From: Pseudomonas bohemica
GTDB lineage: Bacteria; Pseudomonadota; Gammaproteobacteria; Pseudomonadales; Pseudomonadaceae
DNA: 64,000 nucleotides
Assembly: GCF_002934685.1 (NCBI RefSeq)
Contig: NZ_NKHL01000109.1
Coordinates: 69,655-133,654, forward strand
Direction: 5' to 3'
Shown here piece by piece: positions 2,822 through 47,539 of this stretch (its first letter is position 1; every line of letters starts with the position of its first letter). The position numbers were made by a program, and so were the translations under genes. The notes beneath the pieces are model-generated. The model had not been told where the DNA came from and made no database searches. It saw only the letters and a list, made by a program, of their open reading frames with translations.

Positions 2822-3304
2822 ATGCCAAGCGTAGATATCAACCACTATCAAGACGGCGACTTCCTGGTCAATTACGAAGAGAAGGTCTTCGAGGACGTCA
2901 AAGCCGAGCCGGGGGAAAAAGCCCTGCTGACCTTCCATACCATCGCGTTCGAAGGGTCCATCGGCCTGGTCAACATGCTTCAGGCCAAGCGCCTGCTGCG
3001 CAAGGGCTTCGAGACCAAGGTGCTGCTCTACGGCCCTGGTGTGCAGCTGGGTGTGCAGCGCGGCTTCCCGACCCTGGGCGCCGAAGCCTTTCCGGGGCAT
3101 CTGGCGGTGAATAACCAGATCAAGGCATTCATGGCCGAAGGCGGTGAAGTGTATGCCTGCCGTTTTGCCCTGCAGGCCCTGTATGGCCAGACCGAAAAAG
3201 CCCTGATCGAAGGTATCCGCCCGATCAATCCGTTGGACGTGATGGACCTGCGTCTGCTGATGCGGCGTGAGGGCGCGATGATCATTGATACCTGGACGGC
3301 TTGA
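2822..3304 (+). CDS. nitB: Nit1C protein NitB, MSMEG_0572/Sll0783 family
   Basis: A 160-residue soluble protein, the first gene behind the sigma-54 promoter. The start [12 protein letters not shown] follows a GGAG-like ribosome site. The body (residues 30-100) has a DsrE-like alpha/beta pattern, with an [18 protein letters not shown] segment, but no catalytic motif I can name. The family is found only with Nit1-type nitrilase clusters and was called a nitrogen-starvation response protein. Published work on Nit1C reports that nitB product is strongly raised on cyanide. Its biochemical role is unknown. Confidence 0.85.
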
Positions 3305-6046: not shown

Positions 6047-7091
6047 CTCCGTGGATCTGGACGCACTGCTGAACACCCTGCGCAACACCCCGGCGATGCT
6101 GTCCAAGCAGTCGATTCAGCAGCCCGCGCGGGCAATAGGCGCCGCCCCTCGACAGCCGGAAAGACAACTGACCCGCGCCGAGTTGTACGCCTTGCCCGGC
6201 GACGATACGGCGGCGATAGCCTGCGGTGATCATTTTCAGCTGCTGGCCATCGAAGGCATGTTGCCGGGTTTTGTCAAAGCCGCGCCTTGGTTTGCCGGGT
6301 GGTCGGCGGTGATGGCCAATGTCAGCGACATCACCGCGATGGGCGGGCGCGCGACTGCCGTGGTCAACGCCTATTGGCATCACGACGCCGCCGCCGCCCA
6401 GGAAATCCTCGCTGGAATACGTGCCGCCTGCGAAGCCTACGGGCTGATGCTCGCGGGCGGGCATACCAGTCTGGCTGCGCACAACCCCACTGCGTTGGCA
6501 GTAGCGATCACCGGGATTGCCAACCGCCTGCTGTCGACCCTGCACGTGAGGCCGGGGCAGATCATCGCCATGGCAGTGGATCTGGAAGGCTATTGGCATG
6601 CCGACAGCACCTACTGGAAGGCCTTCGAAGGTGTGCCTGCCGAGCGCCTGCGCAGCAAGCTCGAAGTGCTGCCGCGCCTGGCCGAAGCCCAGTTGCTGCA
6701 CGTGGCCAAGGACATCAGCAATGCCGGGGTGCTGGGCAGTCTGCTGATGCTGCTGGAAACCACCGGCTGCGGCGGCGATATCGATCTGCGGCAGTTGCCG
6801 TGTCCCGCCGATGCTGAGGCTGATTTTGACTGGGCGCGCTGGCTGCAGGTCTTCCCCAGCTACGGCTTTCTCATGACCCTGGACGAGGCCAACTGGTCCA
6901 ACGTACAGGCCGCGTTCGCCTTCGAAGGGTTGCGTTGCGAGCGTATCGGCCGGGTCACCGACAGTGCCGAACTCAGCGTTCAGCATGGCTCGCAGCGTCG
7001 CACCTTTTGGAACTTCAACGAGCAGCCGTTCACCGGGTTCAGCTACCCCCATCTCGACCTTTCCCCTTTGTCCGTACACAAGGAGCACTGA
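6039..7091 (+). CDS. nitF: Nit1C AIR-synthase-related protein (Sll0787 family)
   Basis: A 350-residue protein of the PurM/ThiL/SelD superfamily of ATP-dependent enzymes. The N-terminal half carries G-D-D-T-A-A-I (about residues 50-56) and M-A-N-V-S-D-I-T-A-M-G-G-R (about 91-103), the metal- and ATP-binding signature. The C-terminal half has K-D-I-S-N-A-G-V-L-G-S (about 225-235). The family would phosphorylate or cyclise an amide-type substrate with ATP, but no substrate is known for the Nit1C branch. The start overlaps nitE and nitG follows one base after the stop. Confidence 0.85.
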   Translation: MTDSVDLDALLNTLRNTPAMLSKQSIQQPARAIGAAPRQPERQLTRAELYALPGDDTAAIACGDHFQLLAIEGMLPGFVKAAPWFAGWSAVMANVSDITAMGGRATAVVNAYWHHDAAAAQEILAGIRAACEAYGLMLAGGHTSLAAHNPTALAVAITGIANRLLSTLHVRPGQIIAMAVDLEGYWHADSTYWKAFEGVPAERLRSKLEVLPRLAEAQLLHVAKDISNAGVLGSLLMLLETTGCGGDIDLRQLPCPADAEADFDWARWLQVFPSYGFLMTLDEANWSNVQAAFAFEGLRCERIGRVTDSAELSVQHGSQRRTFWNFNEQPFTGFSYPHLDLSPLSVHKEH

Positions 7092-41921: not shown

Positions 41922-41941
41922 TACTGTATGTTTAAACAGTA
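41922..41941 (+). promoter_or_regulatory. LexA (SOS) box
   Basis: TACTGTATGTTTAAACAGTA keeps the CTG-N10-CAG core and both TA flanks of the E. coli-type consensus. It lies 21 bases before the start of the next small gene, a usual place for repression. Confidence 0.75.
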
Positions 41942-42572: not shown

Positions 42573-42923
42573 ATGAAAGATCTTGGTTCACGCCTGAAGG
42601 AAGAACGCAAAAGCCTGGGCCTCTCGCAACAGGAGTTCGGTGCGATCGGCGGGGTTGAAGCCAATGCCCAAGGCAAATATGAAAGCGGAGAGCGCATTCC
42701 TCGTTCGGACTATCTCGCAGCGTTGGGCAAAAAGGGTGTGGACATCCTTTACGTGCTGTCTGGCAAGCGAACGCCGATGGCCGCCGAATCTCTCAATGAT
42801 GCGGAGCGGGCAATCATTACCCATTACCGTGCCCTGAGCGAAGACGATCGAGAGGCAATTTCGCAGTTGGCTACTTCATTGTCGGAGTGTGCGATGGACG
42901 CAGCGGCCCAGGCCCCGGCGTGA
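42573..42923 (+). CDS. XRE-family (HTH_3) transcriptional regulator
   Basis: A 116-residue regulator with an N-terminal Cro/CI-like helix-turn-helix: R-L-K-E-E-R-K-S-L-G-L-S-Q-Q-E-F-G-A-I-G-G. The C-terminal half is alpha-helical (L-N-D-A-E-R-A-I-I-T-H-Y-R-A-L). It resembles phage or toxin-antitoxin repressors, but no phage genes are nearby. Its target is unknown. Confidence 0.82.
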   Translation: MKDLGSRLKEERKSLGLSQQEFGAIGGVEANAQGKYESGERIPRSDYLAALGKKGVDILYVLSGKRTPMAAESLNDAERAIITHYRALSEDDREAISQLATSLSECAMDAAAQAPA

Positions 42924-42961
42924 GAACCGATCCCTCCCAGTAAACATGATGCCTTGCGAAT

Positions 42962-42993
42962 GAATATATGAAACGTATATGCTTTGTATATTC
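42962..42993. promoter_or_regulatory. inverted repeat before the ParD-like gene
   Basis: GAATATA and TATATTC are perfect 7-base arms across 18 bases, 15 bases before the ParD-like start. An inner TATATG/CGTATA core adds to the symmetry. It could be the autoregulatory operator of the ParD-like protein or part of its promoter. Confidence 0.4.
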
Positions 42994-43008
42994 AAAGCGA
43001 GGTAAGTC

Positions 43009-43263
43009 ATGGGATTGGTCAAGATTTCCGAACAGATGCACGCCAACATTCGCGCCGCCAGCGCCGCGTTGAGTCGATCCATCAATGCCCAGGCTGAGCA
43101 CTGGATGCGAGTCGGTATGCTCGCCGAGCTTAACCCCGGCCTGAATTACGCTGATATCTGCCAACTGCTGATTCGCGCCGAAGCCGGCGGTGATGCGCTG
43201 TTGGGTGAGCAGTCCGACCAACCTGCCAGTCATGAGCCTCACGTCAAGGCGGTGTCGAAATGA
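43009..43263 (+). CDS. ParD-like protein
   Basis: An 84-residue protein of the ParD_like family. The ribbon-helix-helix start reads M-G-L-V-K-I-S-E-Q-M-H-A-N-I-R-A-A-S-A-A-L, followed by R-S-I-N-A-Q-A-E-H-W and a short tail. No ParE toxin is nearby. Its stop overlaps the start of the methionine aminopeptidase gene by four bases (ATGA), so it is coupled to that enzyme rather than to a toxin. Confidence 0.82.
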   Translation: MGLVKISEQMHANIRAASAALSRSINAQAEHWMRVGMLAELNPGLNYADICQLLIRAEAGGDALLGEQSDQPASHEPHVKAVSK

Positions 43264-44045
43264 GCGTCAGTATCAAGAGCGAAGCCGATCTGGTTGGATT
43301 GCGCGTGGCCGGGCGCCTGGCAGCAGATGTTCTGGCGATGATCGCGCAGCACGTCAAGCCAGGCGTTAGTACCGAGGCGCTGGATGACATCTGCAATGAC
43401 TACATCGTCAATGAACTGAAGGTCATCCCGGCCAACGTCGGTTATCACGGCTTCACCAAGACCACCTGCATTTCGCCCAACACCGTGGTCTGCCACGGCA
43501 TCCCGTCTCCGGATGACATTCTCAAAGAGGGCGATATCGTCAACATCGATGTCGCGGTCATCAAGGATGGCTGGTATGGGGATACCAGCCGCATGTATTA
43601 CGTCGGTGAGGTCAGTCCTCTGGCGCGGCGTCTGGTTGAAACCACTTACGAAGCGACACTGGCCGGGATTCGTGTGGTACGTCCGGGCGCAACGCTTGGC
43701 GATATCGGTAACGCGATCCAGACGGTGGCTCATCGTGAAGGTTTCAGTGTTGTGCGTGAGTACTGTGGTCATGGCATTGGCCGTAAATATCACGAAGAGC
43801 CACAGGTGTTGCATTACGGGGCGGCGGGGAAGGGGTTGAAGCTCAGGGCGGGGATGGTGTTTACCATCGAGCCGATGATCAACGCCGGCAAGCCTGGCAC
43901 ACACGTGCTGGATGACGGGTGGACGGTGTTGACGCGGGATCAGTCGCTGTCGGCGCAGTGGGAGCACATGGTGGCAGTCACGGATGATGGGTTCGAGTTG
44001 TTGACACCGTGGCCGGACGGTACCGGTGATTATCCGAAGCTGTGA
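43260..44045 (+). CDS. map: type I methionine aminopeptidase
   Basis: A 261-residue enzyme that removes N-terminal methionine. Its residues match E. coli numbering: His79, Asp97, Asp108, His171, Glu204 and Glu235, with H-G-I-G-R-K-Y-H-E-E and F-T-I-E-P-M. Pseudomonas normally has its housekeeping map beside rpsB, so this is probably a second copy. It is coupled to the ParD-like gene. Confidence 0.92.
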   Translation: MSVSIKSEADLVGLRVAGRLAADVLAMIAQHVKPGVSTEALDDICNDYIVNELKVIPANVGYHGFTKTTCISPNTVVCHGIPSPDDILKEGDIVNIDVAVIKDGWYGDTSRMYYVGEVSPLARRLVETTYEATLAGIRVVRPGATLGDIGNAIQTVAHREGFSVVREYCGHGIGRKYHEEPQVLHYGAAGKGLKLRAGMVFTIEPMINAGKPGTHVLDDGWTVLTRDQSLSAQWEHMVAVTDDGFELLTPWPDGTGDYPKL

Positions 44046-45295: not shown

Positions 45296-45628
45296 ATGCG
45301 AAATATGGGTTTGGGCGTGGCGGCGGTTGTTTTGATGGTGACGGCAATCCCTGCGCAGGCCCGAAACATCAGCAAAAACGATCTGCAAGTCTGCAAGTGG
45401 GGAGCAGCAATGGCAGCTAATGCCCAGCAATCCAAGCTTTCGGGGACGACGTTGTACAGCGCACGCCAAAAACTGCAGGCACGAAAATTTTCTCAGCCGT
45501 GGATGCGCAAGATGGCCATCGGGATCACTGATCAGACCTACAAGAGCCCGTCGCGTCTGAAGCCGGCCGCGATAAAGCAGACTTATTACGACGGCTGCAT
45601 CCAACACGACCTGGCGCGTAATAAGTAG
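45296..45628 (+). CDS. secreted small basic protein, function unknown
   Basis: A 110-residue protein with a signal peptide (residues 1-22, cleavage after A-Q-A). The mature part is basic, with K-W-G-A-A-M-A-A-N-A-Q-Q-S-K-L-S-G and two cysteines (V-C-K-W and D-G-C-I-Q-H) that could form a bond. GGGACAGG precedes the ATG. No family is recognised. Confidence 0.65.
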   Translation: MRNMGLGVAAVVLMVTAIPAQARNISKNDLQVCKWGAAMAANAQQSKLSGTTLYSARQKLQARKFSQPWMRKMAIGITDQTYKSPSRLKPAAIKQTYYDGCIQHDLARNK

Positions 45629-45687
45629 AAGGGCCTCCGGGAATACGCCTGGCGTTCAGGCGCATTCCGAGGATATTTTCGCATACC

Positions 45688-46752
45688 TCAGCGGCAGTTT
45701 CCTGCCAAGTGATAGTGCTGTGCTTCGGCCGCCGCAGCGGTATCGAATTCGACTCGATTCTTTTCCGCAACTGCGTTGTACGACGGGCAGCCCGGGCGAT
45801 GGTAGACCATGGTTTTTTTATTGCCACGAATCGCTACGGTCAGGTTATCTGCCTTCGCCGAAGGCGCCGTCGCTGGCTTCATCGGATTGGGCTGGATAGT
45901 TTTTGCGGGAACCGTCGTCGCAACAGAACCGCCAGCACCAAAGCTGGCACTGAGAAAGATCGGCGCATGGTCCGACACGCTGTCACGACCTTGCGCGTGG
46001 GTTACGCCCAGGTATTTTGGATAGTTGAATACCTGGACGTTATTGACCTTTATCGTCGAGTTCTTGCTGACGAAGATGTTGTCGTAGAGGTTGGCAAACT
46101 TGCCATCGGTGCTCGACAGCGTGCTGGCTCCGTTGAGCACTAACGGCTTGGCGCTGGCGTCCAGATTGCCCCAGGCCGGCGAATTCGGCGGTGTATTGAA
46201 GTCGCCCATCAGCATGATCTGATTATTGCCCGGGTATGTGTCTTTCAGCCACGTCCAGTAACTGGACAGCGCTGTGATTTCCGAAGCGCGGTCCGCGTGA
46301 CTTTTGCCGTACAGGATGTGCACCGTGGCAACGACAAAAGTGCTGCCATTCCTGAGTGACTTGAAGCGGGCAGAGTACGGTTCGCGTTCGAAAGTGTCGC
46401 CGCGATCCAGATAAGTGACGGCGCCGTCTTCGTAGGCCACGACATCATCACGCCAAACGAAACCGTACATTTCCTTGTAGGACGACCGACCTACAGCATG
46501 GGACGCCATTGCGCTCCAGTGTTTGCCGGTCTGCCGAGTCAGCTCCTTGGCCAGCGCTTGCAGGGCGTCTTCGTTCATGAGTTCTTGCACGGCGAGAAAG
46601 TCGACCTTCTGCGCGACTTTGGCAATGCCCTGAAAATCCTTGTTCGGTCGCACGCTCAGGTGCTCCAGATTCCAGGTACCGATATTGACGTCAGCGGATG
46701 CGTGTTGCAGGAAAGACAGAGCCAACAGGCATGAAACGAAAAATCTAAGCAT
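45688..46752 (-). CDS. secreted endonuclease/exonuclease/phosphatase-family protein with C-terminal sunset-type domain
   Basis: A 354-residue protein. A signal peptide (residues 1-20) precedes an EEP nuclease domain: G-T-W-N-L-E-H-L, Q-E-L-M-N, M-G-D-F-N-T-P and S-D-H-A-P-I-F-L. This family cuts DNA, RNA or phosphoesters with a metal ion. A linker rich in P/A/K leads to a C-terminal Cys-containing module (Y-H-R-P-G-C-P-S-Y and A-G-N-C) like the sunset/Ada-type domain. Only 112 bases separate its start from the SOS-boxed DUF1654 gene upstream, on the same strand. Confidence 0.8.
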   Translation of the reverse strand: MLRFFVSCLLALSFLQHASADVNIGTWNLEHLSVRPNKDFQGIAKVAQKVDFLAVQELMNEDALQALAKELTRQTGKHWSAMASHAVGRSSYKEMYGFVWRDDVVAYEDGAVTYLDRGDTFEREPYSARFKSLRNGSTFVVATVHILYGKSHADRASEITALSSYWTWLKDTYPGNNQIMLMGDFNTPPNSPAWGNLDASAKPLVLNGASTLSSTDGKFANLYDNIFVSKNSTIKVNNVQVFNYPKYLGVTHAQGRDSVSDHAPIFLSASFGAGGSVATTVPAKTIQPNPMKPATAPSAKADNLTVAIRGNKKTMVYHRPGCPSYNAVAEKNRVEFDTAAAAEAQHYHLAGNCR

Positions 46753-46864
46753 TGAATTCCAACTACGGGCTGATTGAAGCGAAGCGAGATTGCAATGTGT
46801 CTCGCCGGTGTGGCAGGTTTCATGGCCCGGTGACAGCCGGGCGCAGAAACCAGGTGAGGGATAA

Positions 46865-47107
46865 TCAGTCTTCTTTGGGGACAGTCCAGAAAATCTGTAC
46901 CCCGCCATCGTCGCGCCACGCCAGGGTCACGTTGTCGTTCTCGGCGATTTCCTCGAGCAACTGACTCCAGTCATCCTCCAGCTCATCCACGAGGCGGAAA
47001 ATCAGCGCAGAGCGGGATTTTTGCGCGGTCGGAGAGTTAATGACTTTTTGAATGCGCGTGGCCAGGTGTTCATACGAAGCGGGGGCTGTAGCGGCGTTGG
47101 TAGGCAC
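46865..47107 (-). CDS. DUF1654 family protein, LexA-controlled
   Basis: An 80-residue protein of the Pseudomonas DUF1654 type, with S-Y-E-H-L-A-T-R-I-Q-K-V-I-N-S-P and N-D-N-V-T-L-A-W-R-D-D-G-G-V-Q-I-F-W. GTG 47107 has AAGGGA at a good distance and lies downstream of the LexA box. The ATG at 47140 would sit inside the box, so GTG is preferred. The family's function is unknown. Confidence 0.75.
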   Translation of the reverse strand: MPTNAATAPASYEHLATRIQKVINSPTAQKSRSALIFRLVDELEDDWSQLLEEIAENDNVTLAWRDDGGVQIFWTVPKED

Positions 47108-47126
47108 GAAAGTGATCCCTTGTTTT

Positions 47127-47146
47127 TGCTGTATGTGCATACAGTA
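47127..47146 (-). promoter_or_regulatory. LexA (SOS) box before DUF1654
   Basis: CTGTATGTGCATACAG is a perfect 16-base palindrome with CTG-N10-CAG and a TA flank on the far side. It lies about 20 bases upstream of the GTG start, ideally placed to repress the DUF1654 gene and perhaps the nuclease after it. Confidence 0.82.
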
Positions 47147-47243
47147 TTTGAGTGTGGGATGTTTCGCAATACTGGGAAGGGCGGATCTACGGCGGGGCTC
47201 AAGTCGTTGACTGTTCCGACTCGTCTTGGCGCAACGAACCAAA

Positions 47244-47312
47244 ATGAATTACGTCGATCTGATTCAACTGTTGGCGAATCAGTTCGCGACGATCGAAAAA
47301 ATAGAGGAATAG
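47244..47312 (+). CDS. possible 22-residue leader peptide before ygdR-like gene
   Basis: ATG 47244 opens a frame M-N-Y-V-D-L-I-Q-L-L-A-N-Q-F-A-T-I-E-K that stops two bases before the next ATG. The next gene's ribosome site (AGAGGA) lies inside it, so coupling is possible. Its own ribosome site is weak, so it may be chance. Confidence 0.25.
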   Translation: MNYVDLIQLLANQFATIEKIEE

Positions 47313-47314
47313 CC

Positions 47315-47539
47315 ATGAATATCAGAGGGTTGGGGCTCGGCGTCACTTTGGCGTGTTGCGTAATGCTGGCCGGATGCTCGACAGCGACGGTGGTTACCCT
47401 GCAAAACGGTACGCAATACCTCACCAAGGATGCGCCAAAAACCAAAAGCAAGGATGGATTTTATGAGTTCGAGGACATTTCGGGTAAAACCATAAGGGTG
47501 CGCGCTGACGAAGTTGCGACGGTTAAGAAGGAGGATTGA
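47315..47539 (+). CDS. YgdI/YgdR-family lipoprotein
   Basis: A 74-residue lipoprotein with lipobox L-A-G-C at residues 18-21 and a small SH3-like domain: T-L-Q-N-G-T-Q-Y-L-T-K-D-A-P and Y-E-F-E-D-I-S-G-K-T-I-R-V-R-A-D-E-V. AGAGGA precedes ATG 47315. These proteins are widespread, with no set role. Confidence 0.85.
   Translation: MNIRGLGLGVTLACCVMLAGCSTATVVTLQNGTQYLTKDAPKTKSKDGFYEFEDISGKTIRVRADEVATVKKED

Follow-up and report, generated by a model that had tools for sequence, protein, structure and literature searches.

The window, that is, the whole 64-kb stretch of Pseudomonas bohemica DNA analyzed here, probably carries a LexA-controlled SOS unit, in which the gene of a DUF1654 protein that would modulate DNA-damage signalling is followed by a probably co-transcribed gene of an apparently exported DNase. 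Beyond the window, the DUF1654 family is nearly always preceded by LexA-type boxes and is common to hosts and prophages. A sequence-only reading of this region, in which it was suggested that DNA damage may induce the DUF1654 gene and possibly the nuclease gene behind it, was confirmed in its observation and partly supported in its interpretation. The features concerned are as follows:

47129..47144, no strand: LexA-type box CTGTATGTGCATACAG (from the sequence and from boxes matching seven or all eight outer bases in front of related genes)
47114..47121, minus: Shine-Dalgarno-like AAGGGATC before the GTG start (read from the sequence)
46865..47107, minus: DUF1654 gene, 80 aa, GTG start, acidic product of pI 4.45 (PF07867, 109.6 bits)
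46753..46864, minus: intergenic gap of 112 bp, GC hairpin without a T run
45688..46752, minus: DNase I-like (EEP) nuclease, 354 aa, apparently exported (PF03372)
46693..46752, minus: signal-peptide-like N-terminus, nuclease residues 1–20 (by inspection only)
45706..45831, minus: 'sunset' domain, nuclease residues 308–349 (NF051437, 30.7 bits)
47315..47539, plus: divergent DUF903 lipoprotein gene, a locus marker outside the unit (PF06004, 58.9 bits)
43260..44045, plus: M24 metallopeptidase (methionine aminopeptidase-like), the locus marker on the other side (PF00557, 185.3 bits)

LexA-type boxes upstream of DUF1654 genes

The product of the window gene matched positions 2–70 of the 70-position PF07867 profile with 109.6 bits (cut-off, 27). 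Its likely start is the GTG at 47107–47105, preceded by AAGGGATC at 47114–47121; in a longer frame, the ATG falls inside the LexA-type box. The box itself, CTGTATGTGCATACAG at 47129–47144, lies 21 bp upstream of the GTG, in agreement with the earlier placement of a site just before the gene. The site stands, although its description as a perfect LexA palindrome was slightly too strong, since the outer 7-bp arms are complementary but the innermost (central) pair is mismatched. CTGTN8ACAG was found twice in the 64-kb window against 0.57 expected by chance, with two or more occurrences in 13 of 100 shuffles, and a LexA consensus, with up to three mismatches allowed, matched at 47129–47144 and one other place against 0.06 expected. 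Because 0.57 CTGTN8ACAG sites are expected by chance, the single site is not significant by itself, whereas its conservation throughout the family is. A second LexA-type palindrome, CTGTATGTTTAAACAG, is located at 41924–41939, where neither strand shows a convincing gene start just behind it; about half a site of this kind is expected by chance per window.

Conservation was scored as the number of matches to the eight outer bases of the box, counting scores of at least 7/8 and taking, in the survey, the best site within 250 bp upstream of the domain. Four DUF1654 genes are present in the own genome, three with an 8/8 box and the fourth with a 7/8 box. The family occurs in 52 of the 59 genomes surveyed from the genus (own genome included), in 32 of 99 genomes of the wider family, and in 1 of 185 in the class, this one being the own genome. 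Among the 89 survey genes, from which G023:C3 with its two partial DUF1654 matches was left out, a box was found in 88 (77 with 8/8 and 11 with 7/8), and the exception (L111) is a shortened DUF1654 copy. A second set was obtained by protein-based searches, which are blind to the box, and comprised 80 host loci, 80 + 71 + 80 viral loci, and three phage records; after removal of matches below 25 bits, 316 genes were left, 314 of which had 120 bp of upstream DNA. All of these 314 had a box of at least 7/8 and 293 had one of 8/8, including the host copies with a box in 80/80 loci, which are the best 80 of 456 by similarity to the query and thus a non-random sample with many closely related rows. 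The control regions, namely those upstream of other ATG-initiated ORFs (100 aa or longer) within the second-set loci, scored at least 7/8 in 210 of 4816 cases and 8/8 in 12 of 4816. Many rows in the box counts are related and do not represent independent events; the box is, however, kept also by viral members only 23–35% identical to the window protein.

Thus, an origin of the box at 47129–47144 as a mere chance palindrome, for which the 0.57 sites expected per 64 kb might speak, was rejected as very unlikely, because a box is kept in 88/89 and 314/314 relatives as compared with about 4% of the controls at the same cut-off. The DUF1654 gene is therefore predicted, with good support from this conservation, to be under LexA control.

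Twenty loci taken from other genera of the wider family held 22 intact DUF1654 copies, 21 of them with an 8/8 box; L440 scored 6/8, which was counted as no box, and L447 contains a degenerate DUF1654 fragment without a box. Annotated phage and plasmid DUF1654 genes, four of which are shared with the second set, had a box in 10 of 11 cases. The only exception (L507, 3971–4213), the one non-phage Pseudomonas aeruginosa copy examined, scored 5/8 and is found on a plasmid record beside lldA and pvdQ, in what is presumably a stretch of chromosomal genes; no nuclease is seen among its annotated neighbours in an incomplete gene table. With this copy boxless and apparently nuclease-less, a link between the DNase and the SOS response could readily be overlooked in P. 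aeruginosa. The DUF1654 domain tree was built on few columns and left 23 of 64 inner branches open; we relied on it solely for the tailed phage branch (19 rows), the own_C6 branch (18 rows, including the long and unsure row g9_L430), and the position of the window row beside L120.

Two other genes were noted in the course of this analysis. A LexA-type box, CTGTTTGGATATACAG, is found close to the probable start of a gene for a small uncharacterized protein elsewhere in the own genome (L016, 1112–1573), which is a candidate SOS gene. P. aeruginosa PA0922 is described, in passages of PMC8944484, as a LexA regulon member beside dinB; its assignment as a DUF1654 gene was dropped, as nothing showed a family match and the visible P. 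aeruginosa copy (L507) lies elsewhere.

PP_3901 and the phage-borne copies

A member of the family has already been described under its locus name. According to passages of PMC4595014 that cite Abella and colleagues, PP_3901 of Pseudomonas putida is a prophage gene belonging to both the LexA1 and LexA2 regulons, is upregulated by mitomycin C, and is needed for the damage induction of other prophages; the same passages report, as the paper's own data, induction of the PP_3901 promoter by nalidixic acid and H2O2. The primers given there for PP_3901 map to one viral contig (L510), in which an ORF starts at 3041, 146 bp past the start of the promoter primer site, in agreement with PMC4595014. This ORF matched PF07867 with 111.4 bits, its product shares 49% identity with the window protein over 70 aa, and a box, CTGTCTATGCATACAG, lies 19 bp before its GTG start; PP_3901 is a DUF1654 gene. 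The PP_3901 gene of strain KT2440 thus resembles the window gene in the PF07867 domain and the LexA-type box shortly before a GTG. It differs in being prophage-borne and apparently monocistronic, as judged from a hairpin and T run seen by eye behind its stop codon, whereas the window gene is a host copy with a nuclease behind it. The claim that DNA damage induces the DUF1654 gene is strongly supported by the near-universal box in the family, together with the LexA control and damage induction reported for PP_3901 in PMC4595014.

Viral DUF1654 copies are numerous, at least 580 having been confirmed among the 600 pattern matches listed in one scan, and a repressor gene is located no more than about 3 kb from DUF1654 in all 8 annotated phage records read, of 14 matched. 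In one phage branch, the protein carries an acidic tail ending in Pro-Phe, as found in 21 of the 24 survey tails of at least 18 aa; a related set had the Pro-Phe tip on 80 of 84 tails of at least 18 aa but was ranked with a tailed query and is biased accordingly. Since the chromosomal SSB of the own genome ends alike (DFDSFDDDIPF), it is a fair guess that the phage-branch tail mimics the SSB tip. The window protein ends in VPKED, with no such acidic Pro-Phe tip. L113, a small phage-like contig belonging to the own genome, carries a second SSB gene (6478–6990) that encodes DDDIPF followed by nine residues, so that the tip is not terminal; the tailed DUF1654 protein encoded on L113 has EEPAPF at its end. 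Another phage (L118, 5641–6288) has two divergent DUF1654 genes, which have one short intergenic region in common and an 8/8 box each.

Structural comparison gave no decisive hint of function. The AlphaFold2 model of the window protein (pLDDT, 88.9) has an alpha-alpha-beta-alpha-beta-beta topology and found only middling matches with Foldseek and VIA-align, the best being the R3H domain of PARN (Z, 5.9), followed by Smr, ribosomal S8, and CodY; several of these are nucleic-acid binders. DinI was absent among the listed fold matches, all of which were weak, and a PDB sequence search with the family profile gave nothing significant (best E, 0.43). PHROGs places DUF1654 in family 2707, annotated as of unknown function. 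We propose that DUF1654, small and acidic, acts in the cytosol as part of the Pseudomonas SOS response; prophages carry it too.

The nuclease behind the host copy

As described in the sequence-only reading, the gene located 112 bases (46753–46864) behind the DUF1654 gene encodes an EEP nuclease with an extra cysteine-bearing domain. It matched PF03372 with 31.7 bits (cut-off, 24.5), and, among solved structures, DNase gamma and DNase I are closest to it in sequence (E, 2e-11 to 7.5e-10). Residues N28, E57, H145, D184, N186, D224, D261, and H262 were invariant across 17 rows and correspond to the active site of DNase I; the structure model was of moderate quality (pLDDT, 71.9). By eye, the N-terminus is hydrophobic and reads MLRFFVSCLLALSFLQHASA-D, with ASA-D, suggesting that the protein may be exported. 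The cysteine-bearing C-terminus is the NCBIfam 'sunset' domain NF051437 (30.7 bits; cut-off, 27), which is also present in the Endonuclease I variant found at this locus in relatives (33.0 bits in L132); in the window nuclease, the Ada zinc-binding domain PF02805 stayed just under its cut-off (22.7 versus 23 bits). Endonuclease I (PF04231) was absent among the matches of the window nuclease up to an E of 0.1 and had no match anywhere in the own genome (G000).

Comparison of the host loci, again the best 80 of 456, revealed a nuclease gene on the same strand behind DUF1654 in 72 of the 80. Endonuclease I was found in 48 with a gap of 4–16 bp, its sunset-domain variant in 6 with a gap of 48–209 bp, and the DNase I-like nuclease of the window type in 18 with a gap of 44–232 bp, whereas 8 had none of the three. 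In the genus survey, 44 of the 88 other copies had a nuclease (41 Endonuclease I and 3 of the window type), 43 were without one, and the remaining locus was too short; for the best-scoring copies besides the own ones (L027–L076), a nuclease was present in 44 of 50. Within flanks of about 5 kb, RbsB was encoded in 71 of the best 80 loci (42/48 with Endonuclease I, 6/6 with the sunset variant, 15/18 with the window type, and 8/8 with none) and an M24 peptidase in 47 (25, 3, 17, and 2, respectively). The host DUF1654 locus is therefore largely one chromosomal place, RbsB and M24 being seen in all four classes. In the window, the M24 peptidase stands in a row with an HTH regulator and a ParD-like antitoxin gene (42573–44045); the HTH regulator, antitoxin, and peptidase occur near the locus in 28, 47, and 47 of these best 80 relatives, respectively.

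Endonuclease I is found also without DUF1654. In 20 such loci from 20 genomes, none with an adjacent DUF1654 gene within 1.5-kb flanks, 12 were boxless; the other 8, all from genus g12, had a box that is shared with, and closer to, a divergent small gene. A 7/8 match was seen in 4 and an 8/8 match in none of 30 further Endonuclease I loci lacking an adjacent DUF1654. As the boxless loci indicate, the nuclease is not under LexA control everywhere. An independent LexA control of endA in g12 (all 8 genomes with a box of 7/8 or better, six with 8/8) was set aside as ambiguous, because the divergent ORF adjoins the box. This ORF, seen in the 4 of the 8 loci (L488–L495) that were listed, encodes 46 residues and is proline-rich, so that either side of the box could be the SOS gene; an ORF of 103–105 aa follows it in the same 4 loci.

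The order and orientation kept in relatives support the assignment of the nuclease to the same unit as DUF1654, and the 4–16-bp gaps of the Endonuclease I loci, being too short for a promoter, point in the same direction. The best argument for the nuclease slot as a part of the unit is that different nucleases of exported type stand behind the same LexA-boxed gene. Co-induction of the window nuclease across the 112-bp gap is accordingly judged likely from the arrangement of the genes, although the gap may hold a promoter of its own or attenuate readthrough. It is less probable that only DUF1654 is SOS-controlled and that the nuclease, driven by its own promoter in the gap, is a mere neighbour at a locus holding nucleases by coincidence. 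The wider gaps of the sunset-domain nuclease loci (44–232 bp) than of the Endonuclease I loci would suit such an arrangement, as would the occurrence of Endonuclease I apart from DUF1654, boxless in 12 of 20 loci; what weighs against it is that order and strand are conserved in 72 of the best 80 of 456 loci, where three nuclease architectures occupy a single chromosomal place. In a crude scan, the gap gave no promoter-like site, which says little, since the same scan was empty over the whole of 45500–47400.

Two further explanations concern DUF1654 itself. Being small, acidic (pI 4.45), and encoded directly ahead of a nuclease that is apparently exported, it might be a cytosolic inhibitor or immunity protein that guards the cell from the nuclease before export. 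This is improbable, because one of the three nucleases was found behind DUF1654 in 0/80 and 0/80 loci of two viral sets (2 and 9 of them with too little DNA) and in 4/72 of a third (8 more too short), where it presumably belongs to the host flank. Conversely, Endonuclease I was without an adjacent DUF1654 in 20/20 loci fetched as such (1.5-kb flanks), and two unrelated nuclease families stand behind the same DUF1654; a toxin/immunity pair was thus rejected, each partner occurring without the other. Alternatively, DUF1654 may belong primarily to phages, in which LexA-driven expression would trigger prophage induction in the manner of the Tum antirepressor of coliphage 186, and the host copy may be a domesticated relic. 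The abundance of viral copies (at least 580), their location near a repressor gene in 8/8 records read of 14, and the requirement of PP_3901 for the induction of other prophages, as reported in passages of PMC4595014, are all in its favour. We nevertheless regard it as unlikely, as the box in 80/80 and the nuclease in 72/80 host copies (best 80 of 456), largely at one fixed place, speak for a kept host function, and several different prophages would hardly respond to one antirepressor.

Proposed mechanism and comparison with known systems

In the preferred reading, that of a LexA-controlled unit, LexA would sit on 47129–47144 in the undamaged cell and keep the promoter off. Upon DNA damage, RecA would become active, LexA would be cleaved, and the DUF1654 protein would be made, with the downstream DNase probably read from the same transcript. 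The likeliest role of DUF1654 would be to modulate the RecA filament, repressor cleavage, or the SSB network, as DinI-type proteins do, and thereby to affect prophage induction in trans; this role was preferred in view of the reported need for PP_3901 in the induction of several other prophages and of the SSB-like phage tail. If exported upon damage, the DNase would degrade DNA outside the cytoplasm, such as that from lysing neighbours.

A more far-reaching version, which we put forward only tentatively and consider rather doubtful as a whole, would make DUF1654 the Pseudomonas counterpart of DinI/PsiB, tuning RecA and repressor cleavage and setting the threshold of prophage induction in trans. 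The SSB-mimicking tail of the phage version would compete for SSB partners, and the host copy would be coupled to an exported DNase; a single damage signal would then both wake prophages and remove the DNA of lysing kin, and the nuclease slot would have been refilled at least once by an unrelated enzyme.

These findings provide a testable regulatory identity for a function-unknown family present in 52 of 59 genus genomes and many viral contigs, connect it to PP_3901, a reported but unnamed player in prophage induction, and suggest that an exported DNase takes part in the DNA-damage response of many Pseudomonas species. A LexA-boxed family common to hosts and temperate phages, with an exchangeable nuclease, was not found among the matches listed in the open-access literature searched, a body of text outside which most subscription journals lie.

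The DNA scavenging or biofilm release suggested for the nuclease in the sequence-only reading may be among its roles, the nearest experimental parallel being P. aeruginosa EndA. EndA is tied to biofilm dispersion in passages of PMC9769550, which do not mention LexA with EndA and in which PA2750 appears as an uncharacterized gene tested among the AmrZ-dependent genes. No EndA–LexA link was found in the literature searched, where two of the co-mentions were, in the passages concerned, an Escherichia coli genotype (PMC3224232) and part of the word 'endangered' (PMC9578287). EndA/Endonuclease I (PF04231), the usual second gene in Pseudomonas, resembles the window nuclease in place, strand, and apparent export, and one Endonuclease I variant has the sunset domain in common with it, whereas the nuclease families are different.

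DinI, PsiB, and Tum are small SOS modulators of enterobacteria and mobile elements that act on damage signalling. DUF1654 likewise would be a small SOS protein of hosts or mobile elements, but no sequence relation to them was found, and its weak fold matches do not point to DinI. Serratia NucA and the nuclease colicins are SOS-linked extracellular nucleases; the window unit, with its predicted damage-linked secreted nuclease, would resemble them in this respect, while they belong to other nuclease families and are under other control.
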